Assembly: GCA_021234155.1 (NCBI GenBank) | Contig: JAJEKV010000523.1 | Span: 96,368-160,367, forward strand | DNA length: 64,000 bases | Source of the DNA: Isoetes taiwanensis | Taxonomy: Eukaryota; Streptophyta; Lycopodiopsida; Isoetales; Isoetaceae | Direction: 5' to 3' | Part shown: piece by piece, positions 9,701 through 44,581 of the stretch | How the letters are laid out: each line of letters opens with the position of its first letter | Numbering within the stretch: position 1 is the stretch's first letter | Notes under the pieces: model-generated | The model's input: only the letters and a program-made list of their open reading frames with translations | Databases searched by the model: none | What the model was told of the DNA's origin: nothing | Made by a program: the position numbers and the translations under genes

Positions 9701-9770
9701 AGAATATTCTGCCCATCAATGGCCCATAATGAAAGAAGAAAACATCCCAACATTACAAGAACTTTAGTTC

Positions 9771-11285: not shown

Positions 11286-11289
11286 AATC

Positions 11290-14660: not shown

Positions 14661-14859
14661 ACATAATATAACTTGGAATGATAGATATTTTATATGCAAA
14701 TGGGAGACTATTGACGAGGGACTTGTGTTTAGTTTTAATTTGACAACAAATAAGAAAGTGGATCACACGATGCGAATTTAGTGTGTTCCATTTTGTTGCA
14801 TATGTACTATTAGCTTGGTGTGATCCTTTGAAAATAATATGCTCTTTGAAAAGGGATAA

Positions 14860-16625: not shown

Positions 16626-17462
16626 CTAATGCCTTTCCTTTGTCTTGGAAATACTGTTGCCTTGGTGCATGCTCTTGCGGTCCCCGTTCCTTACGGCTTA
16701 CGGCCTTTGATTCTGCCTCGACACGGTCTTTGGGTTTATAGCCCTTACAAACTGCATGGATTTCTTCATTCAACCCTTCAATATAGCCCTTCTACCGGCG
16801 TGCCTTTCACTCAACTTTGGCACATAAAGCCTTAGATCTCATGAATTCCTCCGATTGTATTTACGATTTGATTTGTTGTCTTTGCTGCAACCTCAGAATC
16901 TTTGATCATGTTGCACTTATGTTCCCCTTGGTACGTAATGGTGTTTGAAGCTTTTAGCAAACTTCCCGAACTTGCAACCGCCCCTACTTTCGACCCATCC
17001 ATGTGCTTTTAGCATATCCCTTCCACCATATTCTGGCTTCCCCTTGAGGGTTTTTTGCATTTGCTACCCCGCCTTTATCCTTATCCTTCATGCCATAGCG
17101 TTGCCATACTCACTCATCTCGTCGAGCCAAGCCTCACTTCCATTTGGGATCTGTTGTCTCGAGAGCTGCTCTGGCTTTCGGCTTTCCACACATTGCTAAA
17201 GCGGAATCAACCTTCTTACTTGTCAGTTGTGATCTATCCACATCCGCGGTTTGGATTCTCCGTTCTCGTCTCTCTTTTCTCTGTTCCTCGATTGATGCAT
17301 TATGCGAGCTAGAGTCCAAAATCGAACTAGGCGATCTTCTCCGCCCGGCTTCTCTTCCTTTGTTGCCTTTGTTGACCCGGCCGTGTTGTTTTAGGAGCAA
17401 GGGGTACATTCGATCTTGCCCTCTTTGCTCCTGCTGCCCCGCTAGCAATGCCCTTATGTCAT
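16441..17462 (-). pseudogene. Unassigned charged, coiled-coil-like coding unit, frame-shifted
   Basis: A minus-strand ATG near 17462 opens a Lys/Arg/Glu-rich protein (ALLAGQQEQRG..., then EEQRKERRERR about 60-70 residues in). The frame breaks near 17134, and coding-like segments continue (GYIEGLNEEIHAVCKGYKPK, then GKALGGSGVQNGLPSAIP) to about 16500. The mixed-charge composition suggests helical or coiled-coil structure. No family was recognised. The opposite strand holds a longer open frame (17144-17599), but its composition reads as the antisense of this charged protein. Confidence 0.4.
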
Positions 17463-17800: not shown

Positions 17801-19306
17801 CTACTCTTGGAACTTCTTCAAATAATCTGGGTTGTCTTGGAGGAATTTGTTCACTTGGGCTGTACCAATAGTTCCCCCTAGGTTCCTGAGGACATTCGCG
17901 GACGTACCTCCTTGGAGTGCGTTCAGCAAGTCTTCAATCTTCCTGTCCGACGTATAGGCTGCAGTTTCGCCAATGCGTGCGTGCCGATGCGTAGGGAGGG
18001 CCCAGTCGAAGACACTCAATGCTATCGTTCTCTTGACTAGGATGACATGGTCGATGTTTGAGGCCATGCGAGCATGACTTCCAAATAGGAGGTGGGCGAT
18101 AAGCATGAAAACTCCTTCTCCCCAGCGGGCTGCTGGGCGGTGTATCTTTGCTATCCTTCCATCTAAGAGCAAGGGAAGGTAGAACCTAAGGGCTTTGTCA
18201 TGCCCGCTTCTCGCCTGAAGTGATGGCTTCGGTGTCTCCCGAGAATACTAGATCGTCGGCACTTCCATCAAGTCCCATGTAATTGTAGATGGAAGATGCA
18301 AGGTTGATACTTCTCTTTCTGGGATCTTTGGTGTTGATGCGGATGAGCTTGGCGGGGAATGCGATGATGTTGACTTTCCTTTGATTCCCATGCTCTCGAA
18401 TCGCCAAGAACTCTTCTTCCATCGGTAGCTCTTGCTCGGCCATCATCGTACGATGCTTGGGTCGGAGCCGATATGCGTAGATGTCTCCGGCGGTGTAGGT
18501 TCGGCTTCCCTTATACCGATGGGGAAGTCTTGCATTTTCCACATCGATGAAGTTGTCGAAGCAATGGGGTCTTGTCATAGGAGATCTGACAATTCATCGA
18601 TCGTAGCCTCCGTCACCGAGCACTCGGAAAGATTCTTGATATCATGGAGGCTCAAATATGGCTCTCCTTGTATGATCCTTGGGGTCAAGCTTGTGATCCC
18701 TTGTCCCGGTGGTGGGGCTCTTCGTTGCTTTCGATTCGTCCTCCAAGCTGGATCACATTTGCTCCACCGGTTGCCCTCTCGAGCTAGGTCGATGTCTTCC
18801 GAGTCGACTCTTGCTCTTCTTCTTCTTCTTCTTCTTCCTCGTTCGGCGCATCATCTGCCCTCCTCTGTACTTGCCATGGCCATTGGCTCAATGTCCTAAG
18901 GGTTGTCTTGAAGGCTCTCCTAGCTTAGTTTGACCCAGGAGGGATAGGAATATGGCGGCGGTACGCATTGTAAGAGAAGTATCTCCTCTTATTGGGGTGA
19001 GACCGACATATAATCGAGGCGGTTGGTTTGCTTTGTTTTCTAGGTACTTTTCTACATTTGGGATGTCAGGAGGGCTATCTTGAGGGTTGTATTGGGTGCA
19101 AAGTATCCTATGCAAGGTGGGAGTTCTACTAGGAATGGTCCCTATCTTAGCATGGAACTCGGACATAATGTCCGGTAGAAAGGTGTGGCATTGATGGTGG
19201 CCTCCACGTCGATCACCTTCGAAAAACATTGAAGGCGGGAAATTGATGTCGGCCTACCGACCACATGGGCGTGTATTGTACCATCGCTGAACATAGAAGT
19301 TGCCAT
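17801..19306 (-). pseudogene. Unassigned multi-segment coding unit with its own core promoter
   Basis: The best start is the ATG at 19306 (MATSMFSDGTIHAHVVGRP), 109 bp downstream of a CTATAAATAG box. Protein-like segments follow with frameshifts: about 19230-18890 (FLENKANQPPRLYVGLTPIR-like), an acidic/Lys-rich low-complexity stretch near 18840, 18578-18198 (LPHRYKGSRTYTAGDIYAY, INLASSIYNYMGLDGSADDL) and 18172-17801 (KIEDLLNALQGG, ending NPDYLKKFQE). The total would be about 480-500 residues. No known fold was identified. It is not a gag, polymerase or transposase that I know. The two upstream stem-loops place it with the 31-kb and 61-kb cassettes. A virus-derived capsid-like gene is conceivable, but nothing specific supports that. 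Confidence 0.5.
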
Positions 19307-19861: not shown

Positions 19862-19899
19862 TTCCTGTTTGATTTGGTTGGCCCACTACCACCCCAAAA

Positions 19900-20560
19900 C
19901 CGGGTCCACATGTTGTTTTTCGGTGTCTTTTTTGCTAAAAAACAACACCAAAACACGTGTTGTTTTTTGTCGGGATTTGCTAGAAATAGCGTGTAGTTTT
20001 TTAGTCAAACTTTTATACTGGACGTGGTTTTTTGCGGTAAAAAGTCTGGCGTTAGATTTTGTCAAGATTATCTACGCGTGAAAAGTAGCATGTGTTTCTA
20101 CATGTTTTCTAAATGTAGGCTGTGGTTTCAAAGCGCTATGCGTCCAAAAAATAGACATGGTTCTTAATAAAATTTGAAAGTTCTACATGTTTTTTTTAAC
20201 TGTTGTTTTGCAAAAAAAAAACAACACTAAAAACCACGAGAGAATTTTGTCGGAGACTTTGCTAAAACTAAGCATAGTTTTCTTAAACTATATCATTTCC
20301 ATGTGTTGGCTTTCTCAAAAAATAATACGTGGTTTTAAGCAAAAAGATGTGGTTTTTCAAAAATAGCTATTGTTTTAAGTATTGTCTTGCATAAAACCTA
20401 CATTGGTCTTATAAAAACAAATGTTTTCTATGTGTTGTTAACATATTTTCTAAAGTGGTTATAACACGTGGCTAATAGACATGTCTTAAAAATAAACGAG
20501 TTGAATATTTGAAAATAAGCATTGGTTTTACCATAACATTTAATATCATTTATTGCTTTC
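19900..20560. repeat. Degenerate A/C-rich (T/G-rich) array
   Basis: It starts directly after a family-A stem-loop. Motifs such as 'acatgttgtttttcgg', 'aaaacaacaccaaaacacgt' and 'aaaaccacg' recur in both orientations, alternating with T-rich complements. The composition matches the arrays at 11.3-11.8 and 29.2-30.1 kb. Confidence 0.7.
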
Positions 20561-21833
20561 AAGCATTGTAACTTTTACACAATTTTCATCAGTTTTCAAA
20601 TCCTTTTTCATCAATGTAAAGTTTACACAATTTTCATCATTTCTGAATCCTTTTGCATCAGGTGCAAATTTGAGATCATATACAACCCATTTGTATGGGA
20701 TTCTAGAAGGAAAAAGTACAAGCGCAATTTTTAGAAGCGTGCCACAAAGAATGAAGGGGTGCCAGCTTTTTTGTGCAAAGAGCAAATTCATCATTCTCGT
20801 CCTCTAAAACGAGCTTTTACCTTTACCAACGTTTCATTTCTTTCTGGACCTTGAAACTCGTTCATCATCATCATTTTCAAACCGATCATTATCAACAACA
20901 AAATCAACATCTTTGTCTTGGACATTTGATCTTCTGCAGGGGTTGTTCTCTGCCTCCAACTTCTAGTTAGGGTTGAACAATGCTATCTGCGCAGGGCATC
21001 CTCTATGGCAGCCAAAGAAGATGATTTTTGCCTCTGCATTATGTTTGCCATCTTCCAGAAAACAGAGGCTCCCCATATCATAAAAAAAAAAGGAAATCTG
21101 AGCATGACGAAACCTGAGTGTCAGATCTTATGGTGAGGTTGTAAGTTCGTGCCCGCATGGCTATGACGGCATAAAGAGCTTCGCTTATCATTTTGCCTGC
21201 AGATTCAAAGCTGCTTCAGCCTTTTGTTGAGGTAATTCAGACCCCTGTCTGCCCTAAAATCTCATGCACAAAGCCTCCCACTACCAGAATCAAACCCAAA
21301 AAAGCTGAAATCCCCTTCTTGAAGCCATCTATCGAATATATGAAGATGATTCAAATCAGTAGCAGCCTCTACAAGTAAGATAAAACATTCACAGAAATCT
21401 TACACTGGCAGGGATCTTGGCAGCCTTCGTCTTCAACGACGATGTCGGTTTTGCTAAAGCCTTCAAGCCGCTGCCGGATTTGCCATCGCTATAGCCAAGA
21501 AAGCTTCGACGATGGGAAAACCTGCGCGCCAAGGCCGAGCAGGGAAAATCGAAGGCAGGATATGAGCTTTGCCATGGGGAAAATTTGAGCGCCAAGGCCT
21601 GAGCAGGGCAAATCGAAGGCAGGATATGAGCTTGCCATGGGAAAATTTGAGCGCCAATGCCTGAAACAGGCAGAGTTAGGCGGCGACCAAGGCGGGAAAG
21701 TATCGACCAATCACATGAGAGGATAAGGATCGATATCTAAACCGTTCATTTCATGGCAATATCTGGACCGTCCATCTTGGCTAAAATTGCTTTGAACAAA
21801 AAGGAGTAGATCGAGCATATATCATTTAATTTT
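20560..21833. repeat. Mostly unassigned; 65-bp tandem repeat at 21510-21665
   Basis: No gene recognised. Near 20560-20660 a 66-bp unit is duplicated ('agtttacacaattttcatca' and a close copy upstream). At about 21513, 21575 and 21639 begin three copies of a 63-66-bp unit containing 'aaaatttgagcgccaaggcc' and 'gaaggcaggatatgagct'. The frames across the latter on the minus strand are repeat artefacts. Confidence 0.7.
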
Positions 21834-23980
21834 CTAGTATGGAACAAAATATTTTACCCCGGTTATTGTGATTCCATCGCCAAAATTCCATCCCGCGGAA
21901 TCACCAAGCCGGAGACAGTTATCCGCATACAGAGCCCCTCGTTATCAGGACACCGGTGGTCGCTTTCGGATCATTTATACCTTCGGGAATCACAACTTTG
22001 CTATTCACGATGGAATCACCAATTTTACGATTCTTCGAGATGGAATCTTTGCTCATGTATTCCGCGGGGCGAGTAATCACAACCGTATTATTTATTCACG
22101 CGAGGCGGAATCACAATCGTGTTATTCCGCTGCATCGGAATCACAACCCTTGCTATTCCCGCCGGATGGAATCGAACGCCCGATTCCGCGGAGATGGAAT
22201 CACCACTCACGGATCCCACCGACATTTAATCACAACATTGCTATTCCAGGATGGAATCACAACCATGCGATTTCGGGCCCCGCGGGAATCAAAAATGTAA
22301 GATTCTTCGAGATGGAATCACCATTTAATGGTTCACCGACCCGGTATCAAACCGCTTATTCGTGGGCGGATGGTTCAATCCCAGGTAAGTTAAAAAATGG
22401 TTGAGGATGGTTTAAGCTAAGCCTACGTTACTTGAAGATCATGAATGGTGCAAAAAAAGATTGGCTATTCCATTTTTTTTGTGCATGTCCATTGTTATGC
22501 TATGCAATCGCCCAAAATTTTTTGTTGGGGATTTGAACCCCTTGCCAATATCGGCAATGCCATGGGTCGCTTCAAAGCAAGAGCAAGAAATAAGCCCGAT
22601 TTTTAAAGCAAGAAATAGAATAGCTTACCACAAAATATTGTCCGGCTCTAATCTTTGTTGGGTTTGTTGGGAATCCCATGCACAGGAGGGGATTTTACCC
22701 CGGTTGCCACTATACCGCCTGCCGACCAAATTGGTGGCATTATTGCCACATGGCTGTGGCTCGTGGGCGAAATCCCCGATTTTTGCTTTTATGCGGTCAT
22801 CGACTGGTGTAGATCATCGAGAAGGAAACAACCGCCAAGTGGGAACATCTTACGCCATTTGGATATTTTATGGGATGGCTTGGATTACGAGGGGAGGCTT
22901 GGAAACCATCACAACCGTTGAAAAAGTTGTGCAAGAGGGTCTAGATGCTATCTGGGGTGGAAGAATAATGGCGATGGCGCAGGATCGATGGGAAGCAAGA
23001 AAATGCTTAGAATCCCGACCCGGCACTTCTACATGCAAGCTGCCGTAGAATAAAAACCTCAACGGTTTATTCTCGCTATATAAGCATAGTTGTCCCGCTT
23101 CAAATCTCCTCTCATCCGCCATCAGCTGCCACAATGCGGATGATACAGCTTTCTTTCTTGCTTCAAACATCCTCCCGCCATGGCCATGCCAAACCTCTCT
23201 CGCCATGCTTGCGGCTTCTCACATTAACCCGGCCATGCTTGTAAAACAACACGGAAAGAATCGACCATGTTTGCGACTTCTTTGTATGCAAATACAATGA
23301 GCACAAGCCGCATTAATCCTATCTCATGTTCCATCCAAATACTCATTAAGCTTCATTATATCAAGAATTGCGTGAATCCATCCGGTACTGCAAACTACCG
23401 TTTCTGTTCTAACGTAAAAATGGTTTGTTCTAACCCCCTGTTACTTTGCCATAGCGCAGCATCTACGCACGGAAAACAAGAAAACAAGTTGAAAAATGGT
23501 AGCCAAATCGTTTATTGCCGACATTTGTATGTGCTCCCCCAAGCACCGCTTCAGGCGTCCCCAAGCTCAAGGTCTTTTACCTTTAAGCCCAACGCATTTC
23601 CTCAACTCCGGGCCCTCCTTATTTCCGCCATAGTCAGCCGCTTTAGCAAGCAGCCCTAACGGACGCCAAAAAAAAATTTGAATTTTCTTTGGAATATTCC
23701 CTCGATGGTGATTTTGGCATGGAATAGCGGGGAATAACAGGCGGTGATTCCGTCCGGTGGTATTTGGCGATGTGATTCACGGAAGGTATAAAATGGGCGG
23801 CGGGATGGACCCTATTGACTCCGGATGGTGGGATCCATCGAAAAGGTACACCGGACGTTGTCGCACGACATAACAGGCCTCCGGAACGGATCCCGTTGCG
23901 GGTCTGTGATTGATTAGGAGGGAATATCTTGGCGATGGAATCACAATAAGGGGTAAAATATTTTCACGCTTCTAGTAGAG
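21834..23980. mobile_element. Non-autonomous DNA transposon with long, repeat-filled inverted ends
   Basis: The left end (21846-21905) and right end (23925-23970) are inverted copies: both read inward 'aaaatattttacccc', then 'ttattgtgattccatcgcca', then a variant of 'attccatcc'. Both subterminal regions are packed with GGAATCAC motifs, about ten at 21.87-22.33 kb and their complement at 23.7-23.95 kb. The outermost bases are less alike (ctagtatgg versus ctctactagaagcg). Possible target duplications are 'atttaatttt' at 21824 and 'atttatttt' at 23981, which would fit a 9-bp Mutator-type duplication if one base was gained. No transposase was seen inside. Confidence 0.85.
22420..23060 (+). pseudogene. 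Captured coding-like interior of the transposon, possibly a LINE C-terminal zinc region
   Basis: Inside the inverted-end element, plus-strand frames give segments like FFCACPLLCYAIAQNF, KARNRIAYHKI and WLWLVGEIPDF. The first two resemble the zf-RVT-like tail of plant LINE polymerases (a cysteine/histidine cluster followed by a W.ARN motif). The match is short and frames shift repeatedly, so this is only a suggestion of transduplicated LINE or host sequence. Confidence 0.3.
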
Positions 23981-23984
23981 ATTT

Positions 23985-25735
23985 ATTTTAGCTTGGTGTT
24001 GTTAGAACCCCCAAGTATTATGGACATGTGTCTTTGTCTTTGTCGAGGCATGAATATAGTGAAGGTGTTTTTCTAAATTCATTGGGCATTTCAAGATGAA
24101 ATAATTTCTAATGCAGAGAGAGATAATTATTCCCTCGCCATATAGATTGTGGGTGTATAGGGAAGGGATTATATGTGTATGCCTGCAATTCTGATGACAA
24201 TCTTTTGGGACGATTGGCTTTTAGTTGAATGGTATGGGTCCTTTAAGAGATTCTACAAAACTATGGGAAGAGAAACGTGGAAAAAGACATGGGGTGCGTA
24301 GTCAAGGTGTTTATTTTAATTTACAAAGCGACGTAACAAAAATACACAAAACAATAACTGGAAGCCAATTTCATCCCTCCACCTGCTTTGAAGCTGGCCG
24401 CTGGGTTAGATGGGTTCTTTTCCTTCTCTAGATAAGTTCAATTCTAATATTATAAAACCCTAGAAGGGTTTAACCAATACGAAAAGACAAGTGGACATGT
24501 AGTTTTCAAATAGCTTGCCATGTACTAGTAAAAGGTGCAAGAATGCGATTAAAGAACTATACATCCTAATCCAATAGCTAATGCCAACATATTTTCAACA
24601 CATTGTGTGTGTGCACGTGTTGATTTAGTGATAAGGGAAGGTAGTGTCAAAAAGTATTGGCAGTGTTCAGTGTTCAAACTTGAAAATTCTTTCAAGTCGT
24701 TAAACTTAGTGTTCTTTTTATGGTTCTAAGACGTCATATGAATGTGCCATGGATAGCCACATGATTCTTAACACTACAGTTAGCCAATATTTTTGAAACA
24801 ATTGTTCGATCTTAATACATATGTCACCAATGTTTAAACTATAACAAATTCCTACGAAAAGAAAAAAGGATGCAAGATGCTTCTTTTGCCATAATGTTTT
24901 GAATATGTTAGCCATATATAGTATCATGTTGCTAAAAAATTAATCCTCAGATAGACATTCAATCCACATCGGGACCTATGTTAAAGGAGATTATGTTGAT
25001 GGGAACAATAATATCACATAGATTATCATCATGCCCTTTTGGAGGGAATAATTAACAACATATATATCTGTTTGCCTTAAATCGCTTCTTCGCCTTAAAG
25101 CCCTCGAATTTTTCTTTTGTCGAAAAGGCCCTTTTGTAAATCCCTGGTATGTTGCATTCTTGATCAATTCCATTCAATTTTCTGTCTTTTTGTACATTAA
25201 ACAAGATTATTCGGGAGGTTTGGAGACGATTAGTTAATTTCGAATCGACCGGATCTTGGCATTCGTTGTGTTTAGGGTTCTTGAAAATCTTCTGGCCGAT
25301 TTATCCCAGGAAGTGCATTTAGGTCCGACGAAGCCAAGATATATAAGGAATAACAAATTCCTTATTTATAATTATTGCGTGCAATATCCACGTGATTCGG
25401 TGCCCTCCACCACACGCTTCGGATGTACCGCGTGGCATGGGGGAGATTCAATGGGAGAAAAATAGGTCGAGGGCGGTAGATGGAAATTTTTTTTTTTTTG
25501 CCCCATGGACCATGGCACATTTCCTAATTTATTTTTTTTGTACTAGCCATGACCTATTATCTCCCGTGGGCGTTAAAAAAAAACTATTCTATTCTATTAA
25601 TGGCCAAAACAAATGAATTTTTTTGATTTCATTTTTTTGCAATGGGAATCTTTTTTTTCATGCTCTAAAAGATTCGGAATCTTTTTGTGAATGGGCATTT
25701 TCAAGTTTGGCTTAAAATGGCTCAAAAAAAGATGT
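23985..25735. other. No gene recognised
   Basis: AT-rich with short frames on both strands, none resembling a known protein. Homopolymer T-runs cluster at 25480-25660. No repeats stronger than background were noticed before the 'gtgacatgg' minisatellite begins near 25735. Confidence 0.4.
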
Positions 25736-26900
25736 GATGTGGCATGTGAGAATAATGACATGATAATTAGGGGGTGACATGGCAACTTGGCTTAGAATAT
25801 TTTTTTTCTAGTCAAAACCTCAAATGATGTGAACATGATGTGCGTGACATGTGGATGGTGATGTGGAGGTGCTAAAGATGATGTAGCAAGGTGATGTGTC
25901 ATCTTATGGATGTAACTTGAAGGCTTTTGACAAAAATTTGAAGTATGATCATGGAGATAAGTGCATGACATGACATGGCAAGGAGGGTGGCGTGTGTGAT
26001 GACTTGGCATTTTCAATGTGGTTTTCATGGGTCAATTTTGCTATAAATGCAAATCATTGGCATTTTCTAGGCAAGCTTGACTTTTGAATGTTTCCCTTAG
26101 GGTCTTTATGATTTTCTCTCTTCTTTGACTTTGAAGGAGGGAGTATTGACCTTTTGACCACATGCAAGACCAAGTCAAGTGAAGTTTAGGACTTTGAATG
26201 ATGTAGAGTTGGTGTGGTGAGCTCATGGCATGTGAATGACTTTGAAAGTGTAGTTTGACTAGAAAAAATCTTCAAGGCCAAATTTGACTTGGAAATGAGT
26301 TGTAGGCATGGAATTCAAGATCTCATGGGTATTTCATGGTGGTGGAAGGCATGGGAGGTATGGAATGGGAATCAAAGCATTACAATAATAATGCCAAGAA
26401 CTCAAATGATCACATACCAAAGAGATCTTCTAGGGGTCTTCATCCTTTTGCTTGATTCTCCTTTTTGCCTCATTTGTGTGACTCGAAGTCAATTGTCCTC
26501 ACCTTGCTCTTCAAGCCTTCAATGAAGCATTCTTCTTGTGCCTTAAAATTCAGATCAAAGTGTGAGGATTACTCTTCAAAACATGTCTTGTTCTTCCATG
26601 TCGCCTATAACATGGCGACACCCCCTGACATGTCCAGAGCCTAGGGGCATGATTAAGTCAAGTGGCATATTTGAGCCCGTGTATGTGGCATGTTTGAGTG
26701 TATATGGCATGTTTGAGCTAATGTAGCATCCTTGAGACTTGTGGCACCAACAAACAAACATGGAAAGATGATGTGGCACTCAAGTGGTGACATGGCATGC
26801 CAAGTAAGCAAGGTCAAGTTTTAACTAGGCCAAAAATGAAAAGATGTTCATCTTTGGTCTTTTTATTGGGTGATGTTGGCAAATTTTGGGTGACATGGCT
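25735..26900 (-). repeat. CATGCCAC minisatellite family, inverted orientation
   Basis: Between about 26620 and 26800 the text reads 'gtggcatgtttgagtgtata' and relatives, the reverse complement of the 5.5-6.3 kb unit. From 25735 to 26300 looser motifs ('gtgacatggcaacttgg', 'gatgtggcatg', 'gatgtgtcat') continue the theme. Low-complexity frames in this stretch are not called as genes. Confidence 0.7.
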
Positions 26901-27189
26901 AGATCAGACCGCCATCTCGGCTCCCAAACCGACTAGAGCAAACGGGGAGGATTCACTTGGGTTTAATGGTAGTTCCTTCACGAATTCCCCTAATCGGGTG
27001 CCATCTACGCCTCGCTATGAAGCCATTCTTGAAGTTCATCAATATCTGAGACCAAATATGGTAGGTGACAAAGGGCGACCTACCTATGGTGCTATATATC
27101 TAAGGGCCCGATGCTCTAGTTCCCAACTTGATAATCACTTTTCTCATACGATATTTAGTAAACCAATGCCCTAATGACTCCGTCTTTGC

Positions 27190-28960
27190 TTAAAAAGGTC
27201 GCTTCTTACATCGATCAAATCTTTATACCACTTTGGTTTAATTCTAATACCTTTTGCTTTTACGCAGGGCTCTCGACAATCATGGTCCCATCACCTATTA
27301 CAATGATGTCCTAGTTTTCTGCTTTGTATATCAAAAATTTACTGCGGCATGGATCATAACCACGGTAACATGGCAAAGATCCTTGCTTAGAGCCACGACC
27401 ATTTGATCGGCGAGCCCATCGACACGACTTGTTTTGAAAGCTACTCCTTTTGTATAGTCCAAACTTTAGCTTAGGTTGGAAAACCACGTCAATTTGCTAT
27501 TTAATGGTAGTCCCTTCTAAGACTACTTTCAAATAGGCATGATTAGATTATGGTAACTTGGTACCTATTTCAAAGTCGTGACTAGGTGCAGTATCGAGGG
27601 GACATTGCATAGTCATCGTACTTTCCCCAAAGGGTAAAACAAGTAGCCTCCCGAGTTTGGAAACCTCGATTCCATTCATGATGGAGAGAGCATATTGTAC
27701 CCAATTCAAGCGGATAATCCCCCATTAGATTCTTAAGCATCATTTAAAATTTTGAGAGCACGGATCCACATATTGGGACAGCGGACATCTCCGGCTGCTC
27801 AAATATGACCGGATTGAGCCCCTTTGGTTCGGTGCATTAAAGTCTCCAACGATTAGTACTTCTCCCAATTCAATGAATTCCATGATATCTTTGCAAAGTG
27901 CATGTAATGGATTCCTCCTGTCTAGATCTTGCTGGTGGTATAGACTCATATTTAATGGTGCATAACAGCATAAAGCCATGTGAATCACCTTATCCCGCAT
28001 ATTCACCCTTATCCACATATGCTGATTATGTTCTTGTACTCTCACAATTGAGATATAAGTCTGCGGCCTTATATAAACTGCCAACCCTCCGTTACCTCTA
28101 TCTACACCAAGGTGGTTTTAAATTCTATGCAAAAGCCTAACAAAATGAAGCTTGCAATATCTGGTAGAGCTTCGGCTTGGTGTTCCCAAGTTTTACAAAA
28201 GCGATTACCATATCAAAATGCTTAATTTGTTCCGCAACTGCTTTTGCTTTTGCTTGTGTAAGCCCATGTATATTCCAGAACATGATCTTCAAAGTCCTAA
28301 ATTCCTAATCCTTCTTTCTTTTTGTTAGAACTGCCTTTCCATTCTTATCCAGATATGCTACAAAACCCTCGACCCTTTTTACGCTTTCATTTTCCATTCT
28401 ATTTTCCTAGCTTCCGGTTAGAGGGTTAAGTACGGATCTAGATAGAACTTCTTTCCCTTCAAAATAGCCATGTTCTACGTAATATCGGTCTTGTGCTTCC
28501 ACACTGCGAATTTAACCAAGATCGGTCTATTATACCCTCCTGGTTTTGCCTAGTCTTACGCCTTGCACAAATTGCGGTTCATGCGGATGCATAACATCGA
28601 AGAATGTATCAAAAACGCCCGGTGAGGTCTTCAGACTTCCTACTACGCTATGCCCGGAATTTTTTCAAATTTGGACGCGGGATGTTGATTTGTTTGCTCG
28701 CTAAAATTCTCTCATGATCTATGGTCATCTACTCCTTTGGTTGATTACGCAACCAAAGATACCATGCTTTGCACATCAACCGTTTGGGTTTCCCAGTCCG
28801 CTTGATGCTTCTTTTAATTCAGTTTTGGGTTGTTAGTGTTTTGTTTTGCTTTACCACTTCTTCAAGCAAACTTCGAGCCACAATCTGGTTTCATTTCAAG
28901 TAGCATGGCAAGCATCTCGGCAGAGTTCCCTTCATACTCTGCCGGATCCCCCGGGGAGGG
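27190..28960 (-). mobile_element. LINE fragment A: ORF1 tail plus endonuclease
   Basis: Minus strand. Near 28560-28380 the text RPILVKFAVWKHKTDI and LNPLTGS resembles the end of a LINE ORF1. At 28283 begins MFWNIHGLTQAKAKAV, the usual start of an exonuclease-endonuclease-phosphatase domain, and 28084-27740 includes MWIRVNMRDK, YAPLN and LIVGDFNA, the catalytic GDFN region. Coding similarity continues to about 27540 (FEIGTKLP) and fades by about 27190. No reverse transcriptase follows. The endonuclease would nick target DNA to prime integration. Frames are broken, so the copy as read is inactive. It is homologous to fragment B at 45.1-46.5 kb (shared MNGIE and YAPE/YAPL segments). Confidence 0.85.
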
Positions 28961-29164
28961 ACGGCTTTTTTTTAACGGTCATATAAGCGGTGAGAAATAG
29001 CTCTTGCCGTAAAACCCTAAATCAAGTATCGGGGAAGAGAAGCGAAGCAAAAATTGCAAAAGCCCGATGCAGAAAATATGTGAATGATGATCGAAGTGAC
29101 AGGAAGTGTTCGAACATCCGAACAAATCCGATATGTGTTCTTTTGTTTGCCTGGTTTTGGGTCA

Positions 29165-30115
29165 AAACCGATGTACAAACTACACCACTTCATAAAATCA
29201 TACTTCCTTAAAAACAACCATTTAAGAACTACACCTACTTATAAACCACACCTCAAAAAACCATATTTCCTTAAAAACTACACCTACTTATAAACTACAC
29301 CTCAAAAAACAACACCTCAACTTAAAAAATCACATCGCTTCAGAAAACCCAATGCTACTTGAAAACTACACCTACTTATAATCCACACCTCAAAAACCAG
29401 GATACTTGGGTCTACGACCTCAAAAACCATACTTCTTAAAAATAGCTATTTAAAACTACACCTAGTTATAAACCACACCACTTCAAAAACTACATTCTTT
29501 AAAAACAATCCTTAAAAACTATATCTACTTATAAACTACACCTCAAAACCATACTTACTTTAAAATAGCTACTTAAAAAACTACACCCTAGTTATATAAA
29601 ACCACACCTCAAGAAAACCATACTTCAGCAAAAAAATGGCTTCTAAAAAACTACACCCTAGTTATACATTACACCACTTCAAAAACGATGCCATTGAAAT
29701 GCGACCACTTATAAACTACACTTCAAAAACCACTTCTTTTAAAAAATAGCTATTTAAAAAACTACACCCACTTATAAAACCACACCTCAAAAACAACACC
29801 TCAATTAAAAAAATCACCACTTTCAGAAAACCATACTTTCTTAAAAATAACCATAAAAACTACACCTCATTATAAACCACACCTCAAAAACTATGCTTGC
29901 ATAAAAAACAACTCTTAAAAAACTACACCTAGTTATAAAACCACATCTAAAAACAACACCTTCTTAAAAAAACAACATGCCCTCAAAAAATAAAACGACA
30001 CTTCCTTTAAAAAAAAACCACACCTCAAAAAAGACCACACCTTCAAAAAACTATAGCTCTTAAAATAACTACGCCTCCTTAATAAACCACACTTCCACAT
30101 AACCACATGTAGATT
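29165..30115. repeat. A/C-rich tandem array, roughly 50-bp units
   Basis: The clearest of three such arrays. Units run like 'aaaaactacacctacttata', then 'aaaccacacctcaaaaac', then 'catacttccttaaaaa', with more than 15 degenerate copies. It ends abruptly near 30115 and a family-A stem-loop follows at 30290. Confidence 0.93.
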
Positions 30116-30289
30116 TTTTGAACAGCGACATGTGGTCTTTTTTTCTTGTTGTTTTTAAGTGTGGATGGCGGTAATTGGGATTGGTTGTGGCCAATTTACA
30201 CAAACTAAGGATCAAATCCTATCAACTAGGTCGAGTTGAGTCAATGGTGTACTTACTTTACGCATTTGGTCATGTTTTGGGGCGAGTTC

Positions 30290-30518: not shown

Positions 30519-31775
30519 TTATAATTCTTTCTTAATGAACTTAGCAAGCCTCATTATCCTTTGGCATACTGCGTTACTCTTTTGCATGCATAGCACATGC
30601 AATTGAGTCTTGACTGCACTATATGTTGCTCCGCCGCCTCTGTGGCGCGGAAGTATATCGTCCGTAACTCGCTTCGACTTGTCGAACTCTGTAGAACTTC
30701 CTTGTGAGTCGTGCAAAGGAGGCTCTAGGGATGAGGAAGCCGTAGCTCTGCTGAAAATGCTTGATCACCTTGGCGCTCTCGGCTTTTAGGTCGCATGTCT
30801 CTTCATTGGCTTCTTTGGTGGCTTTGGGTTTCGGTGGCCGGTTTGGCGTGTTCTTCTTTGACCGGCCCTCTCCTTCTACAAAAGTCACCTTATGCTCCTC
30901 GTAGTATTTGGAGTATTCTTCGTACATTTTCATGAGCGAATTATACTCTTCGGCTCCCTTCCCGGTACTTGAGGTCACTGTTTGGTAGCGTGGGACTCCC
31001 TTTGTGGTTTTCGGCTTCTTTGTCTTTGTCATTTGGGATGCTTGGGTGTATGCCACCTAGAGTATGGGGTGCGCTTGCTACAAGCGTCTTCCTCCTCCCC
31101 TTGGCTGTGTTTGAGGGTCCGGAGCCCAGTGGGTCGGGTCTTCTAACTTCTCTATCGACTCGTGTCGGATGAGGATGCGGTTTCTCAGTGCGGCTCACGG
31201 ATCGTTACTCCCCTTGGTAGGGTCTTCTTCTTTTAGGTTTTCTCGCCCGGTCGCTCACGGATCCTTCCCTTCTCGGCTCTCACTCTCTCCGGCTCTTCCC
31301 TAAGCTTCTTCTTTTCCTCCTTTCTCTGTTTCTTTTCTTCTTTCTTCTTGCGCCCGCAGCTCCTCCTTTTGCTTGCGGCGGCTCCTCCTTGGTTTTTTCT
31401 TCTTCGCCTTCCTCCTTTTTCTCTTCCCTTTCTTGTGCTTTGCTTCGTGTTAGTGCCGTCTCGAAAATTTCTCTCTCCGGCTCCCCTTCAACTCCTGCGG
31501 CGTTCATATCAACCCGATCTCCTCCGTGCCTCGAGATCTTGGGTTGTTCCTCCTTCGCCGATTGTTAGGGTTAGGCTGATCCTCCTCTTCGGCGTTAGAA
31601 TTAGGTTGATCTACCTGTTCCTCCTCTTCGGCATTAGGATTAGGTTGATCCACATTCTTTATTGCTCTTTCGGTTCGCTCGATAGTCGTGGGCCTTACGT
31701 TGGCTGCTTTCTCTCTGGCCCGACATATCTAGGGGGCACAACTTCCCGGCGGTCTTACGTTTTCGTGCGTGCCAT
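30519..31775 (-). CDS. Divergent histone H3 / centromeric H3-like protein with a very long tail, frame-shifted
   Basis: The ATG at 31775 opens MARTK, the invariant H3/CENH3 start. A roughly 290-residue tail follows: three DQPN(P/S)NAEEE-type repeats (about 31560-31650), a Glu/Lys/Arg-rich stretch (31507-31280), then SLMKMYEEYSKYYEEHK near 30950. The C-terminal part has the H3 fold blocks in order and spacing: VIKHFQQSYGFLIPRASF (alpha-N/alpha-1), then in the next frame TEAAEQHIV (alpha-2), CKRVTQYAKG, and in a third frame IMRLAKFIKK (alpha-3). 'LIP.ASF' after 'HFQ' is the CENH3 rather than canonical H3 version. Such proteins form nucleosomes, CENH3 specifically at centromeres. The span (about 417 codons) greatly exceeds CENH3's usual 150-180. 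At least two frameshifts fall in the fold and an early stop follows codon 6. Confidence 0.75.
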
Positions 31776-31989: not shown

Positions 31990-32062
31990 ACCACTCACAT
32001 AGTGCGCGAGAACTAGTTAGGAATATGATCCTAAGTGGCCTAGGCGCACTCTGTGAGGGGTT
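31990..32062. repeat. Stem-loop repeat, family A copy 4
   Basis: CCACTCACATAGTGCGC (31991-32007) pairs with GCGCACTCTGTGAGGGG (32044-32060) over 17 bp with two mismatches. Inside, TTAGGA and TCCTAA pair again. This is the most stable-looking member of the family. Confidence 0.88.
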
Positions 32063-32202
32063 GCCTCTTTTTGGGTCCCATTTTTTTTTTTGTTACAAGG
32101 GGTTTATTAGTGTTTTAACATGCAAAACTAGCTAGAACTTAAGCATTAAGCGAATTACATCATTAGATTAGCTCAATTATGCATCTAAGCGGGTCAAGTT
32201 GG

Positions 32203-32282
32203 GCCAACCACTCACCACCCACAGTCTTGAGGCGTTAGGACCATAATCCTAAGTGGCCTGGGCACACTTTGTGAGGGGTTCC
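32203..32282. repeat. Stem-loop repeat, family A copy 5
   Basis: The arms CCAACCACTCAC... and ...GTGAGGGGTTCC pair, with a further inner match (CACAG with a CACACTTTGTG segment). It lies about 215 bp from copy 4, repeating the paired arrangement seen at 19.6/19.8 kb. Confidence 0.8.
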
Positions 32283-32481
32283 CTCTTTTTGGCCAATTTA
32301 GGTTTGTCTAGCTCTAAAAATGATCTCTATTGCTAGCATTGCCTTACTACTGCACTACAATTGAGAAAAATTTTCCCAATTTTTGAGGTTCTTGCTTGGG
32401 ATGTTGTTCCCAAGGCCGAAGTTCTCTTGTTAGTCCTAGGAAAATGGTCGATTGCTTTCGATCTTGGTCTACCAAGATCAT

Positions 32482-32491
32482 GCTCTGATAC
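32482..32491 (-). promoter_or_regulatory. Primer-binding site for initiator Met tRNA
   Basis: On the minus strand GTATCAGAGC begins four bases after the end of the adjoining LTR. It matches the core of the plant retrotransposon primer site TGGTATCAGAGC, complementary to the 3' end of initiator Met tRNA. It fixes the orientation: the element's interior lies to the left of 32482, which includes the stem-loops and the histone-like gene. Confidence 0.7.
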
Positions 32492-32495
32492 TGCT

Positions 32496-33990
32496 TGTGG
32501 CGTCCCCTACTCCCTATACGATGCACACATCATATCTGAAGGAGGAGCCTTCCCCTGGCGGACCGGGGGGCCATCCTGACTCCACTCGGTGGAATGAGCC
32601 GACAAGGGAAGAGTGGATGTGTCATTCACCCGTCTTCCATCGGGATTGACCTATCCTGTGAGCCTTGAATAAACAAACATGAGCACAAACTAACGGTGTA
32701 CATAAATACAACCACCCGGTAGGGGTGAACATAGCGTCAACATCACAAGAGATAACAACATCAATCATAAACAATAGCGAAAAGGGGAATCCTACCCAAG
32801 GCTCGGACTCAAAGGGGATGGGCGGCGGTTTGGGCCTCGGAGGTCATTGCGCATGAGAATTCATGGCAATGGATTTGGCTGGCATAGAACATAGCTTAGG
32901 GTAGTCCACACCATCGCCCCTCCACACACTTTTGCGAGTAGGTTGAAGAGCTTTGGGACCTAACAGTAGCTTGCAGGGTGAATAGCCCGGAGGGGCTACT
33001 ACTCTTGGGTTGCATCTCCCCAGCCCGGATGAGGCGGGGAGGGAAGTCTCCTCCCTCGGAAGCAACCATGCCCTTCAAAGGCGGCTAGAGAGCCCCTTTG
33101 CTCTTATTAGACTTCAACTCAATGGAAGGTGGCGCATCACCCACAGTGTCGAGCCCATGCCTTGCCCTGCGCGGTGACAAGCCATTAAGCCTAGCCCTTG
33201 AGACCCCGGTAGGCCTTACACACACCCGAGGAGGGTCGGGCGTGTAGGGACATGTTCTTCCTTGTCGGCCGGTGGGATCCCTCCACCCACAACGGTGGGC
33301 TCATTATGCAGGCATGCAAGTAATTGGGAGCTATTGGTGCTAACTAGGATCATCTTCTACACGACTTTAAGTCTCTACCCCCTTCCCAAGACATGGAAGT
33401 CACAGAATGAAATACATCCAACATCATAGGCGGAAATAGAGAATATCATCAAATCAATCTATCTACACCTTGAGTTAGATTGATTAGTTAGAACTTATGG
33501 CCTCGGGATCTATAAGGCTTCTAGAGTTGATCCTAACACATCAATTCGGCCTATTGCCATGCCCAAAGGCGGTTGCACAAATGAACAACTAGATTACGCT
33601 CCTTGACTGCTGGCGATCCTCGGGCGTCCATGATCTTGATCTTCTTTGGAGATGGCTCCGAATCGGTATCTGTTGGGCAAATCCGGTTTTGAGGCTAAGA
33701 ATGCGGATTGGAGATCTGCCTTGGCCAAAATGACCCAAAGAGAACCCTAAATGAGAGGATGGGAAGGAAGCTCTAGAAAACCCTAAATGTTAAAGATGGA
33801 AAAGGGTTTAGGGTTTAAGGGGAAAGCCCTTTTATAGAAACCCTTAGGGTTAGGTTAGACTTTGGCCAAATGGGATTTAGCCATTTGGCAATGGGGTCCA
33901 TGGGGTTATTAATTGTGTATGTTTATTTAACATGCACAACATTCAATGTTGCCCCTAGGTGCAACTCTTGCACCTAGGTGCAACCCTATA
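32496..33990 (-). mobile_element. LTR of a retroelement family (copy A), minus orientation
   Basis: About 1.5 kb homologous throughout to 62203-63680. Shared landmarks are 'cctacccaaggctcggact', 'attcatggcaatggatttgg', 'gggttgcatctcc', 'cacccacaacggtg' and 'ctacccccttcccaa'. The boundary next to the primer site begins tgtgg. A TATA-like box (minus CTATAAAAGG) lies at 33829-33838 in the LTR's upstream half. The far edge near 33950-33990 is set by the last shared motif 'gcccctagg'. A perfect 9-bp hairpin (taggtgcaa/ttgcaccta) lies at 33957-33977. No matching second LTR for this copy was found in the window. Confidence 0.75.
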
Positions 33991-34220
33991 CATCTCGCAA
34001 GTACATGTCATTCGGTGACATGCAGTGTGGACGTGATGTATAATATCATTATTCGGGTATATATCATCTTTGGAGCGTCACATTATACCATTTTGGTTTC
34101 ACCTTAATCCCTTAGGTGGCGATCCCTTGCTGTTGAGCATTCCATGTCCCACCATGTGTTGCATGGGACTCCTGCTTCACGGGTCTTGTGTACCCAAAGC
34201 ATTGCCCGACTTCCCTCATG

Positions 34221-34225
34221 ATGAT
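34221..34225. repeat. Target-site duplication ATGAT, left
   Basis: ATGAT directly precedes the 5' LTR start TGTTAGTC at 34226 and recurs at 45121-45125 directly after the 3' LTR. A 5-bp duplication is standard for LTR-retrotransposon integration and fixes both ends of the element. Confidence 0.9.
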
Positions 34226-34769
34226 TGTTAGTCTGTGCCTCACAGTGCAGGGACTATTCCTCTGACGGACGGGTCAAGCTCAAGGATCCCGATCAACCCA
34301 CGGGTCAGCCATCCAAGGCCCCGCAGAAGACCAGCGGCGACCTATCAAGAGGCGCCGCTCGGACAAGTGAGGGCCGTCACCGCCCGCGTCGGCGTCGCGT
34401 GATTCTAGGCACTTCAAGAGGCGCGCCAACATTCCAAATCGGGGCCTCCTTCCGAGTCGGCACGAGATCGGTCGAGTGTCTATATTGGGCCAAAGGCCAT
34501 TGTACTATATATATGAGTAGAGCTAGCATATGAGGGCTAGATGAGTTTTGAGTCTTGTCTCTCTTGATCTTCTCGATTCGCGAGAGCTCATGTATGTTCA
34601 TCATTGATATCAAAAGCATATCATTTTCCTCTCATTGTTCTTTTCGTTCCGTTTTTCTTCTTCTTGTTCTTTTCTTGCAAATCCGGCCGTGACATAGTCC
34701 CCAGTTCTCTGTTAGATCAAGGTCCTCACGGAGGCGTCTTGGGAGTTCGAACCAGAACCCCCAAACGCA
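34226..34769 (+). repeat. 5' LTR of the gypsy element
   Basis: It starts TGTTAGTC and ends CAAACGCA. It shares with the 3' LTR the blocks 'gattctaggcacttcaagag', 'tgtctatattgggccaaagg', 'gagctagcatatgagggcta' and 'gtccccagttctctgttaga'. A TATA-like 'actatatatatgag' at about 34504-34517 is the likely promoter. A tRNA-T-arm-like 'gagttcgaacc' occurs near the end in both LTRs. Confidence 0.93.
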
Positions 34770-34969
34770 TGCGCTGCGGGGGTGCGATTCGTTTTTCCCC
34801 TTCTTACGTGCGCCATGCGTAGAAACTTCGCCCGGAAGAACTTCTTTCCCGGAGGCGCGTCTCGATTGGGCGCCATCATCGGCGGGGAAGGCTGTTGCGT
34901 GACATGTATGGATCGCTTATGACATTGAGGAGGCCACATTAGGTCTAGGGCTCGGTCGAGCGCCACCCA

Positions 34970-36600
34970 CCCTCGTGTCATGTCTCGTCCAAATTCTCCA
35001 CCTCAAAGCGTGCAAACATTGCTCCACGACCTCGGTCTCCTCATCACTATCGGGAGCCCTATCCGGCTCCACCGCTCAACCTTACTTTCATACCCCGAAC
35101 ATGCCTTCATCCATCACTCTTCTAGCCATCGCCTCTGCCCTTCACAACCATCATCTCCTAAGGGTGAAGCGGGGATATCCACATGTCTCTTTTTGCTCCT
35201 CCCGGGATTTTTCCTTCCCTACCTTTCCCACCCGCTCTTCACGTTTTACAATCTTGCAGACCTCAAACCCAATGATCGGGCACCTCCGGTAACCCCACCT
35301 CCGCCACCCCTTGGTAGAGGTCTTTCCGGCACCATACCCCCTCAACTCCATCTCAATATCCTCACTATCATGTTCGGTCCAGCCCGGCACTTTTACCTCT
35401 ACCTTTCGGACCCTTAAGGCGACTTATCCCACCTTTGGCAACCACGAAGGCAAACCTTTAGACCAAAGTGCTCGGGCCCACATGGAAGAATTTGAGGCTC
35501 ACAACATCGAATGGTCATCGCAACCTCAACTGAAATTCCACATCTTTTCCACCACATTGCGTGGCTCCCTCATCAATGGCTCATGTCCAGCAAAAAGCCC
35601 TTTGGAAACAAGATTGGTCGAAATGAAAAACTTTTCTTTCTCACTATGGGACCACGGATGATGATCAACTTCATCTCAAGCAACTCAATGACCTTCAACA
35701 AGAGCCCACAGTTCCGCGGGGATTTTGCAGGCCGTCTTCACATTACGCTTTCCGGCAAACTCAAGGAGTACCCCCACAGAGCGGATCTTGGTCGGTTTCT
35801 CCAGGACTTCCTCCATTCTCGGACTCATGGTGAATACACCTAAGACTTTGGAGGGGGCTATCGATCTTGTCAATCACTTTCGGTCAATGTTTCCTCGTGG
35901 CGTGGCTCTTGAGAGCTCCCTTTCATTCCACCCGTCATGGTTCCCCAGACTGGCTACTATTCAACCTCAACACGCCAATCCATGGGTTGGTCCCGGATCT
36001 GGTGCCATATCGCAAATATCAAAGGCCACTTGGCGAATGAGTGCAACTCCACCAATGGCCCGCCTCATTGTAAACGCAACATGTGCAATCATGCCACGGA
36101 AGAATGCACTGCGCACTCATCCTACACCTTTCGCAACAAGATGGTTTATCAAGTGCAAACAACACCTCGGCACCAATGCGCCATATCGGCCACCACCACT
36201 GCGCGAGCAACCCAATCAACTCTATCGGCAAGCGGGCAACAACGGGGACCCAACACCACGTTCTCCTTTTGATCCGCAAAAAAGCTTCGGTGTTATCGCA
36301 TCAAGAATGGGGTCATACCACCACGGCGTGTCCTCAACTTCCCAAGTTTGGTGCGGCTTTCGACACGAATCGGACCACATCGGTCCGCCTCACGGCTTAC
36401 CAACTCTCGGCTTGCTAATGGCAAACAAGGCCAGCGTCCGGTTGCCGGAAGCCACCTAGCGCCTCGGCAATCGCGGCTATCAACTCCGCTCCCGCCAATC
36501 AACCTGGATGGATCAACAAGCCACACGGGAAGAAATTTTTCGGGCTCTTAATCCTCCGATCCGGCCATCAAATTGGGTTGGTTTGGTTTCATGCCGGAAC
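34970..36600 (+). pseudogene. Gypsy gag (capsid and zinc knuckles)
   Basis: Gag coats the RNA inside the virus-like particle. Coding segments in shifting frames include LEGAIDLVNHFRSMFP near 35850 and, about 36000-36130, cysteine/histidine clusters of nucleocapsid type (KGHLANEC; CKRNMCNHATEEC). A further CCHC-like motif (C...KNGHTTTAC) is at about 36292-36337. The longest open frame here (35725-36459) follows gag only in part before drifting into another frame. Protease is expected immediately downstream, consistent with a gag-pol order. Confidence 0.8.
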
Positions 36601-37049
36601 CGAGGCGTCCGTCCTTAACCGTTATTCCTAATGGCCCACGCACTTGCCTTTGCGTCCGGCGCCATTCCTCATCACCGAAGACAAAAGGTCCATTTTGCCG
36701 GACTTGGAGAAACTCATGCGAATGTCATGCCTAAAGTTAGCCAAAGCATTTTGAACCTCATGCAAGCTGGCGAAGGCCGCGACGTTGGCTAATGTCCATG
36801 CCACCACGAGCTCAACAACGACAAGGCGCACCTTCCGTCTCAACCTCCGGCTCTCGGATATATCCCAATATGTCGCTGCGGAGGTTGACCTACTCAAAAA
36901 GTTCTTTGCTTCCTTACCCGCGCTCTCACGCACTGTGGATCCGGCCCGATCCTTTTTCTCATGTGCCTCACGGAACTCCAAGAGGAGCTAGCCAAAATCA
37001 AAATTCCTTTAAGCTTGGCTACAATTTTGAAACTCATCACGCTCTCAAG

Positions 37050-37330
37050 GACCGGTTACCACTCATTGTTTTGGTTGGGGCTGTTGCTACCTCTACTCCC
37101 ACGGTCCATGCCACGGTGGGCAATCAACAAGTCAATCATGTTCAAATTGGCCGGAGGTAGGTCAATCTCACCGGATAAACTCCGGAAAACAAATGGGCAT
37201 CAAACAACTCTATAGGTGCCCCATATGACATCAAATTGGCCAATGGCCATATCCGAGACCTCAAGGCGTCACACCTCTTCTTCACATCAACATAGGTGAT
37301 CTGATTCCCCTTGGAATTTGGTGTTTGGAA
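37050..37330 (+). pseudogene. Gypsy aspartic protease region
   Basis: Between gag and RT, segments such as VGNQQVNHVQI followed by a GG.S-type turn and then GAPYDIKLANGHI fit the retropepsin-like fold of gypsy elements: a strand leading to the D.GSS catalytic loop, then the flap-like 'LANG.I' strand. The catalytic Asp is not readable because of local base changes. Assignment rests on position as much as on motif. Confidence 0.6.
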
Positions 37331-37865
37331 GGTGGAAGATCGGTGATTATGAAATGTTGGTCGGGAGGACCTTTTCTCCGCCGGGCCAAGAGCATTCATT
37401 CTTTGGGGCCGCGGATGGGTTAGTCATCAGCGATGGTCACCTCAATGCCACCATGGACTTGGAAGCCGGCAAAATCATTTCCGTTGACAATGCTGAACCC
37501 TCTCTCTCTCCGAGCCGAGAGGACTAGGGGGCCAAGAATATTTATCAAGTTGGGCTCCACTGCGAAGCGCCTCTGTCATCCTACCCCGGTATGCTGATCC
37601 TTGGGGAGAAATGACTCTTGATCGGGACGGTTGTGGGCTTTGCTTGACCCTTACGGCTCCTTGCAATGAATCCAACGTGTTGATCACTTTTCGGAGCGAA
37701 CCTCCTAGCGGCTCACATTGCGGAAGTACATGCTGTCATGAAGCAACCTGCTGCTTGAGGCTTCGGCAACCTCTCTTTTCACCACGCGAGCGCCCGCATC
37801 CTGTTATGTTTCAACCTCCTGCTCATATTGTCCAGGACATGGAAGTTATCCCCATATTCGAGACT

Positions 37866-37990
37866 CACTACTACAAAAATAGGTAGAAATGGCACAAAAG
37901 TGACATTTATCCTCCTTTACAGGGCATAGCGTCACTTTTGTGCCAGGTCATAAATGGCACAAAATGGCGAATAAATGTCGGCCACTGTCC
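37866..37990. mobile_element. CACTA-type end or MITE-like hairpin inside the gypsy element
   Basis: CACTACTACAAAAATAGG (37866) is a typical CACTA-family terminus. It is followed by a perfect 14-bp inverted repeat, ggcacaaaagtgac (37891-37904) and gtcacttttgtgcc (37931-37944), and then a partial third copy (aaatggcacaaaa). The gypsy pol frame is interrupted here and resumes by about 38040. No opposite terminus was found, so it may be a fragment. Confidence 0.65.
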
Positions 37991-38039
37991 GGATCGCGCC
38001 AATCTTCCCACACCCTATCATTAACGGGCCGTCCGCTTT

Positions 38040-39410: not shown

Positions 39411-39439
39411 GCGCCTTTCTCGATGCTCAACTCTTTACG

Positions 39440-40620: not shown

Positions 40621-40799
40621 TTTCAAGCGGCTGGAGTTAGATGGCACTCCATTACCTACAACGGTTAATGGCTTCGCCTCAAAACATTTCATACAGCGAA
40701 AGTGCATCCACACGGAATCTTTGTTCGGACAGCATGCACACAACGGATAATTGACTAAACCAGCGGCATATTTATATTATAGGTGGAATTTTTTACAAA

Positions 40800-44570: not shown

Positions 44571-44571
44571 T

Positions 44572-44581
44572 GGTGGGGGAG
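44572..44581 (+). promoter_or_regulatory. Polypurine tract of the gypsy element
   Basis: GGTGGGGGAG abuts the first base of the 3' LTR (TGTTAGTCA at 44582). A purine run in this exact place primes plus-strand synthesis in LTR retrotransposons and supports the LTR border. Confidence 0.85.

Follow-up and report, generated by a model that had tools for sequence, protein, structure and literature searches.

Results

An H3-Like Gene Remnant on the Minus Strand

The window analyzed here, a stretch of 64,000 nucleotides of the Isoetes taiwanensis genome (C245:96368-160367), contains at 30519..31775 of the minus strand the remnant of an open reading frame, ORF1, which starts as a histone H3 tail, continues into a long linker rich in Lys and Glu, and ends with a C-terminal H3 fold, the frame being broken in this copy. 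The tail start (31758..31775, minus strand) reads MARTKT and is followed by a stop codon; the coding region of the fold (30519..30795, minus strand) is delineated by alignment, by profile and PDB matches, and by relatives that retain it in a single frame. Along the minus strand, the landmarks are the ATG at 31775, HFQ at 30759, EAAE at about 30640, HAK at about 30588, KRVT at about 30583, MPKD at about 30567, and the end at about 30519, the H3 blocks being spread over three frames with several frame changes. The first-pass annotation had listed a MARTK opening and a series of H3-fold blocks in the C-terminal part, and every one of them was found; the distance from LIP to EAAE, given there as 92 nt, is 95 nt on recount, compared with 99 nt, all in one frame, in the relative L032.

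A frameshift-tolerant local alignment of the segment 30401-31000 yielded scores of 102, 104, and 89 with the domains of Arabidopsis CENH3, rice CENH3, and H3, respectively, the maxima over 60 dinucleotide shuffles being 42, 49, and 51; the second-best of 318 tiles of the window on both strands, scored against Arabidopsis CENH3 only, reached 47. In a single frame, ORF1 of the window gave a weak match to Pfam PF00125 (15.2 bits, E 0.026). With the frames joined, the fold by itself reached 25.5 bits (E 1.7e-5), slightly short of the 26.4-bit cut-off, and inclusion of the linker brought the match to 31.2 bits (E 3e-7); H3 chains from PDB were matched at E 8e-6. Since the joining of the frames was guided by H3, the real test is provided by the shuffles and by the single-frame relatives. 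In one of these, L036, the fold in one frame scored 76 bits with PF00125 (E 4e-21) and aligned with H3 over 87 residues with zero gaps. The best 60 PDB matches of the joined frames (of 177) and of L036 (of 175) are H3, a few of them labelled only as histone domain-containing protein. Comparison with H3 profiles, earlier suggested as a check, thus agrees with the observation for the joined frames and for L036 alike, and the H3-like character of 30519-31775 is confirmed. An Rfam search produced no match at the gathering score, and a tRNA search found none.

Organization of the Surrounding Element

The remnant follows a 5′ LTR (32495..34003, minus strand), whose outer end is inferred from the point where the alignment of relatives stops and from the TG start. 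Just inside the LTR, at 32482..32490 of the minus strand, lies the primer-binding site TATCAGAGC, which we take to be of the initiator-Met type, and then a leader with 59-nt direct repeats (32016-32074 and 32234-32292; 32016..32292, minus strand). Between ORF1 and the next gene, ORF2, the window copy is interrupted by a nested insertion of about 10.3 kb (19881..30180) flanked by the target-site duplication TTGGTTG on the left (19874..19880) and on the right (30181..30187); the relatives cross this site directly, joining window positions 30188 and 19859 through some 20 nt. The insertion itself contains a weak endonuclease match on the minus strand (27743-28117, Exo_endo_phos, E 0.037; LINE-like by eye) and, at one end, A-rich tandem repeats of the AAAACTACACCTACTTATAAACCACACCTC type (29207-30050).

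Beyond the insertion, all on the minus strand, lie the N-terminal part of ORF2 (18776..19306; 44% to ORF2 of L040, E 1e-30), its C-terminal part (17804..18247; 36% over 64 aa to ORF2 of L025, E 1e-7, with an alignment score of 84 against a peak of 46 in 300 shuffles), and a gag remnant (16660..17141; 31–33% to gag of L012, best E 4e-12). No pol of the H3-bearing element was found in the window, a comparison of the L012 pol with positions 1-16600 being empty at E 1e-3, nor was a second LTR of this element found in the window.

Other repeats are present as well. A second related element lies on the minus strand at 61530-62600 and extends up to about 63700, its segment 62503-63094 being approximately 70% identical to the first LTR; its open reading frame opens with MARTKRDSPHS and has a charged tail, and tandem repeats of the GAATCT type (60197-60871) occupy the position expected for the H3 fold. 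Another Ty3-type element, on the plus strand at 34223-44944, has an LTR pair (34223-34600 and 44579-44944) with 85% identity and pol matches at 38138-40556.

Relatives of the Window Copy

A genome search (1,658,258,908 bases in 1110 contigs) with the DNA segment 30519-32500, in which the best 40 of 1231 first-look candidates were scored, retrieved 12 near-full-length relatives besides the window copy among the matches listed, with DNA identity of 82–88%, as well as others at 68–76%. Eleven of the 12 were fetched (L030–L040, the window copy being L029). The opening MARTKQTARKV, the canonical H3 tail start, is present in ten of these 11, the exception being L035, where a stop replaces K9. The 78 fold codons lie in a single frame in five of the 11 relatives (L030, with a garbled middle, L032, L033, L036, and L038); L040 is also open in this region, with a few codons missing, and the fold region is broken in L031, L034, L035, L037, and L039. 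We refer to this anatomy, that is, an N-terminal H3 tail start, then about 300 residues of charged linker, and a fold 50% identical to the host H3, as the window type.

Sequencing error as the sole cause of the frame breaks is ruled out by relatives that read through at 82–88% DNA identity, and polishing of the locus, proposed in the first-pass annotation, is hence not needed to explain the breaks. Because the fold reads through in relatives, the window copy is best regarded as a decayed member of the family, split further by the 10.3 kb nested insertion.

When the putative LTR (32500-33980) served as the query (best 40 of 7097 first-look candidates scored), 40 dispersed LTR copies were retrieved, many of which bracket copies of ORF1. 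Among the matches listed, an LTR on the same strand lies at most 1.1 kb upstream in ten of the 12 near-full-length relatives, a downstream LTR is seen in seven, and six have both; one relative (C1072:2218468) has no LTR among these matches, and the one on C1077 has the downstream LTR only. The bracketed length ranges from 13.3 to 24.4 kb overall, being about 13.5 kb on C1031, 13.3 kb on C1047, 14.4 kb on C1063, and 16.5 kb on C801; the greater lengths on C1019 and C1064 (22 and 24 kb) are perhaps due to nested insertions. The exact TATCAGAGC is present in all 12 loci of the window family, upstream of the ATG by 709–716 nt in 11 loci and by 1031 nt in L038. The gene order ORF1–ORF2–gag is seen in part in LTR-bounded copies of the window type, an ORF2 start being recognized by motif in six of 11 loci. 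No target-site duplication of a whole H3-bearing element was found in L010, whose second LTR precedes a leader copy, so that it is not a simple element; its two LTR copies are 95.5% identical, with a purine tract before the second one and then another leader copy and protease sequence, and we interpret this as a tandem or recombinant arrangement.

The LTR with its primer site upstream of the gene, noted in the first pass, is therefore real, as the dispersed LTR copies and the conserved primer site demonstrate, and carriage by a mobile element, originally put forward as a possibility, is more strongly supported than had been claimed: the unit is LTR-bounded and multi-copy, and a genome search for copies with the same flanks recovers them. 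On structural grounds, the H3-like gene of the window type is carried by an LTR retrotransposon.

A genome search with the window-type fold (best 150 of 8174 first-look candidates scored) found at least 150 dispersed copies with 77–100% identity, 18 of them with open frames of at least 400 aa, one of these 18 containing a stop (tables counted by eye); of the 150, the H3-tail opening was read in the fetched window-type relatives only.

A Second, Near-Canonical Type

In a search of the genome with PF00125, the best 150 of 8705 first-look candidates were scored, and all exceeded the cut-off. The top 15 loci (164–165 bits) represent ordinary H3 of 136 residues, as read in eight of them and assumed for the remaining seven. 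The other loci, dispersed and at least 135 in number, contain near-canonical H3 domains (144–155 bits), and none of the 150 window-type copies lies within 5 kb of any of these 135; both 135 and 150 are lower bounds, the first-look counts being loose and not copy numbers. Open frames of at least 400 aa occur in 36 of the 135 (tables counted by eye).

We fetched 20 of the 135 loci, many picked for long open frames. In all 20, ORF1 (326–464 aa) has the H3 domain at its C-terminal end or close to it. In this type, an N-terminal part of about 300 residues precedes the domain, and the H3 tail is absent from the N-terminus; in three of these ORF1s, PF00125 matches in a single frame with 142 bits. Three H3 domains were aligned with the host H3 and share 84, 87, and 89% identity with it (11–16 differences in 97 residues). 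The exact TATCAGAGC is found in 13 of the 20 loci. Pieces of ORF2 lie downstream of ORF1 in 18 of 19 loci (excluding L027, the source of the query), L012 being the exception, and of the 19 loci compared with L012, 17 have gag, protease, reverse transcriptase, or integrase further downstream; L012 itself has the domain order Ty3 capsid, protease, reverse transcriptase, RNase H, and integrase. In a genome search with ORF2 (99 of 6582 first-look candidates scored), 37 of the 99 have a near-canonical H3 hit less than 4 kb upstream, with about 0.02 expected by chance according to our estimate, and the ORF2–H3 spacings mostly take two values, which reflect the strand. Taken together, these data argue that a large group of Ty3-type LTR retrotransposons encodes an H3-type protein as its first gene, upstream of gag.

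Residues 1–300 of ORF1 have no relative at E 0.1 or better among 2265 candidates. In a protein search with the full ORF1, 4106 of 7952 candidates were scored, and the 120 matches listed cover 21–44% of the query, consistent with their reflecting the H3 domain. Nine whole ORF1s are 44–47% identical to that of L028 with the H3 domain included, hence their N-terminal parts diverge even more. The gag, protease, reverse transcriptase, or integrase pieces of L024, L025, L026, and L028 are 90–99% identical to those of L012. Given this high identity in gag-pol versus the low identity of ORF1, and saturation of silent sites between the near-canonical subtypes, ORF1–ORF2 modules may be exchanged by recombination, or else may diversify fast. 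The gag of L013, L015, L016, and L020 is only 39–71% identical to that of L012, perhaps due to broken frames.

The ORF2 Protein

By eye, ORF2 was considered as an H2A-like histone; this is unsupported, as four ORF2 proteins have no Pfam match at E 5 or better. The best PDB and PHROGs matches of ORF2 have E-values of 1.2 and 0.5, respectively, and its structure model has a mean pLDDT of 39. Homology of ORF2 between the two types seems clear for the C-terminal part and borderline for the N-terminal part. For the latter, profile comparison of the window type with the near-canonical type is not significant (E 0.27), alignments of the window sequence with L014 and L022 score 32–50 with shuffle maxima of 41–60, being reached by 0 to 35 of 500 shuffles, and six other partners give no better than chance ranks of the 29–126 type. 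Among 7999 scored candidates, the sole ORF2 relative at E 0.01 or better is P0121, a protein of 471 aa with 42% identity encoded on a 2953-base ENA contig, which may come from a transcript or from another lycophyte; no ORF2 relatives were found in viral contigs. Between ORF2 and gag, L027 has a further open stretch of about 157 aa (positions ~6900–7400, oriented), which has no Pfam match, is perhaps bounded by introns, and is frame-broken in L014.

H3 or CENH3

From the residues HFQ and LIP.ASF, the first-pass annotation had identified the gene as similar to centromeric H3. The window type does share with plant CENH3s these residues and a long variable tail; it differs from them in lacking the loop-1 insertion, in being element-borne, and in its many copies. 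The fold is 48–50% identical to the host H3 versus 44–52% to two plant CENH3s, and its loop 1 is without the one or two extra residues of the latter. The ungapped alignment with H3, the absence of the insertion, and the similar identity to H3 and CENH3 do not support identification as CENH3. In total, 44 of 88 residues match the host H3 without gaps, including R83, C110, H113, R116, T118, D123, and L126, which presumably matter for contacts, and the changes at R63, K64, and R129 may weaken DNA binding.

A tree built from 30 H3 domains places the element domains of the near-canonical type in a single clade (support 87) next to H3. The window type (support 100) joins the CENH3s (split 97); its branch is very long, and the set included only two CENH3s. 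This grouping, together with the CENH3-like HFQ and LIP.ASF residues, would be compatible with an ordinary host gene for CENH3 or H3, or a pseudogene, caught between repeats; we consider this explanation exceedingly improbable, given the many dispersed copies bracketed by the same LTR family and the lack of the loop-1 insertion. In particular, copy number and LTRs exclude a single-copy CENH3 with no repeat association, the case named in the first pass as the one that would speak against a mobile element. The origin of the two types fits either two captures or one capture followed by fast change in the window type. We favor assigning both types to one element clan because of the ORF2 homology and the shared gene order.

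Selection and Structure Models

In the two larger near-canonical subtypes, the H3 domain has dN/dS values of 0.050 (over 55 pairs) and 0.024 (over 21 pairs), and the N-terminal part has 0.152 in both. These values are biased low, for the H3 domain most of all, since the sample comprised 20 top PF00125 scorers, many with long open frames; L014, which fell outside the group rule, was excluded, and L028 stood alone. Within subtypes, dS ranges from 0.44 to 1.14, being 0.44–0.61 for the H3 domain. In this sample, the H3 domain of the near-canonical type is apparently under purifying selection. In the window family, dN/dS of the fold is 0.52 (five copies), which is in line with copies in decay and does not argue for selection; we consider these copies to be drifting now.

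The latter value, along with the known ability of plant LTR elements to take up host genes (PMC7264820), would suit a captured host H3 gene carried as a passenger without use. We nevertheless regard such carriage as very unlikely, given the low dN/dS of the near-canonical H3 domain at the above dS (in a biased sample), retention of the fold in subtypes whose ORF1s share only 44–47% with L028, and the presence of hundreds of copies.

The structure model of ORF1 has a mean pLDDT of 53, with low confidence for the H3 domain as well (the alignment contained ten sequences), and a Foldseek search with this model gave no hit at E 0.001 or better.

Discussion

Possible Role of the Element-Encoded H3

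The interpretation that we put first, because of the conserved fold and the precedents of viral histones, is that the window holds a decayed copy of a Ty3-type element whose first gene encodes an H3-type protein that enters host nucleosomes with H4, to the benefit of the element; we consider this proposition evenly poised. The ORF1 protein would be made from the element RNA, would pair with the host H4 through its H3 fold, and would enter host nucleosomes as such a pair. Its extra part could then connect components or DNA of the element with chromatin, and this link could affect integration, nuclear retention, or silencing in favor of the element, the benefit being, for instance, weaker silencing or guided insertion. 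A broader form of the model, which we propose more tentatively and with somewhat less than even confidence, is a retrotransposon clade with its own selfish H3 variant that is put into nucleosomes with the host H4 and builds or marks the element's own chromatin and thereby evades silencing or directs insertion; in the window type, the tail motif with H3K4 and H3K9 on a long arm would be both a mimic and a part of the nucleosome.

Alternatively, the protein might form no nucleosomes at all and act as a histone mimic or decoy, with the H3 tail start and the fold occupying the host's H3 writers, readers, or chaperones and thus weakening silencing. Two features of the window type agree with this: in the 11 relatives, the first ten codons show only synonymous differences apart from one stop (L035), whereas codons 12 and 14 have residue-changing ones, and half of the fold residues are changed. 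On the other hand, the near-canonical type has no N-terminal tail and an almost unchanged fold, and a pure tail mimic needs no fold, so that we find this explanation rather unlikely.

Similarly doubtful is the suggestion that the H3 part serves only as an integration or nuclear tether, anchoring Gag or integrase complexes to chromatin, as has been proposed for chromodomains. ORF1 does join an extra part and a chromatin part in one protein and is positioned just before ORF2 and gag, and targeting by chromodomains has been described (PMC3350952 and PMC12786077). Insertion positions, however, depart only weakly from uniformity (P 0.047 and 0.041 across a set of 15 contigs that had been selected in part for carrying copies), and no clear clustering was seen on these 15 contigs, a small sample with unmapped centromeres. 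The lack of clear clustering counts against the model of entry into nucleosomes as well.

Comparison with Known Systems

Among the matches listed in the open-licence literature of PubMed Central, no title reports a histone-bearing LTR retrotransposon, and the available portions of the main text of the I. taiwanensis (PMC8566536) and I. sinensis (PMC10541799) genome papers do not mention histones. Several known systems are similar in part.

Plant LTR retrotransposons with additional open reading frames, where such frames are most frequent between pol and the 3′ LTR according to PMC7264820, resemble the Isoetes elements in having a conserved extra frame beside gag-pol, but in the H3-bearing elements ORF1 and ORF2 precede gag, and the available text of PMC7264820 is without any histone term. 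Ty3/Gypsy elements of Phalaenopsis carry an m6A RNA demethylase domain, again a captured host domain kept by a Ty3/Gypsy lineage, although an enzyme and not a histone; the screen of 121 angiosperm genomes in the same study revealed 15 unusual domains, with no core histone domain named in the available part of the report (PMC9289625).

Among viruses, single histones such as the bracovirus H4 and the singlet viral H3 likely enter host nucleosomes, and the bracovirus H4, with an extended tail and a conserved fold, does so (PMC9145170). Here, too, one host-derived histone resides in a selfish element; unlike the Isoetes case, these histones belong to DNA viruses, and the terms retrotransposon, retroelement, and retrovirus are absent from the available text of that source.

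Finally, chromoviruses, that is, chromodomain-bearing Ty3/Gypsy elements, present in the lycophyte Selaginella according to PMC3350952, are similar to the Isoetes elements in being Ty3/Gypsy elements with a chromatin-related domain. The difference is that chromoviruses carry a domain able to read H3 marks, located at the end of pol, whereas the Isoetes elements carry H3 itself.

Implications

Elements that read histone marks via chromodomains and DNA viruses with histones are thus known, but the literature matches listed include no retroelement with its own H3. If the protein enters nucleosomes, the element would replace the very molecule that the host uses to silence it. The window type would offer a direct test of the effect that an H3 tail on a long arm has upon silencing. 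More practically, histone counts in the I. taiwanensis genome need masking of these elements. The element-encoded H3s constitute a natural set of H3 variants apparently shaped by selection in mobile elements, and plants might gain new H3 or CENH3 variants from them.
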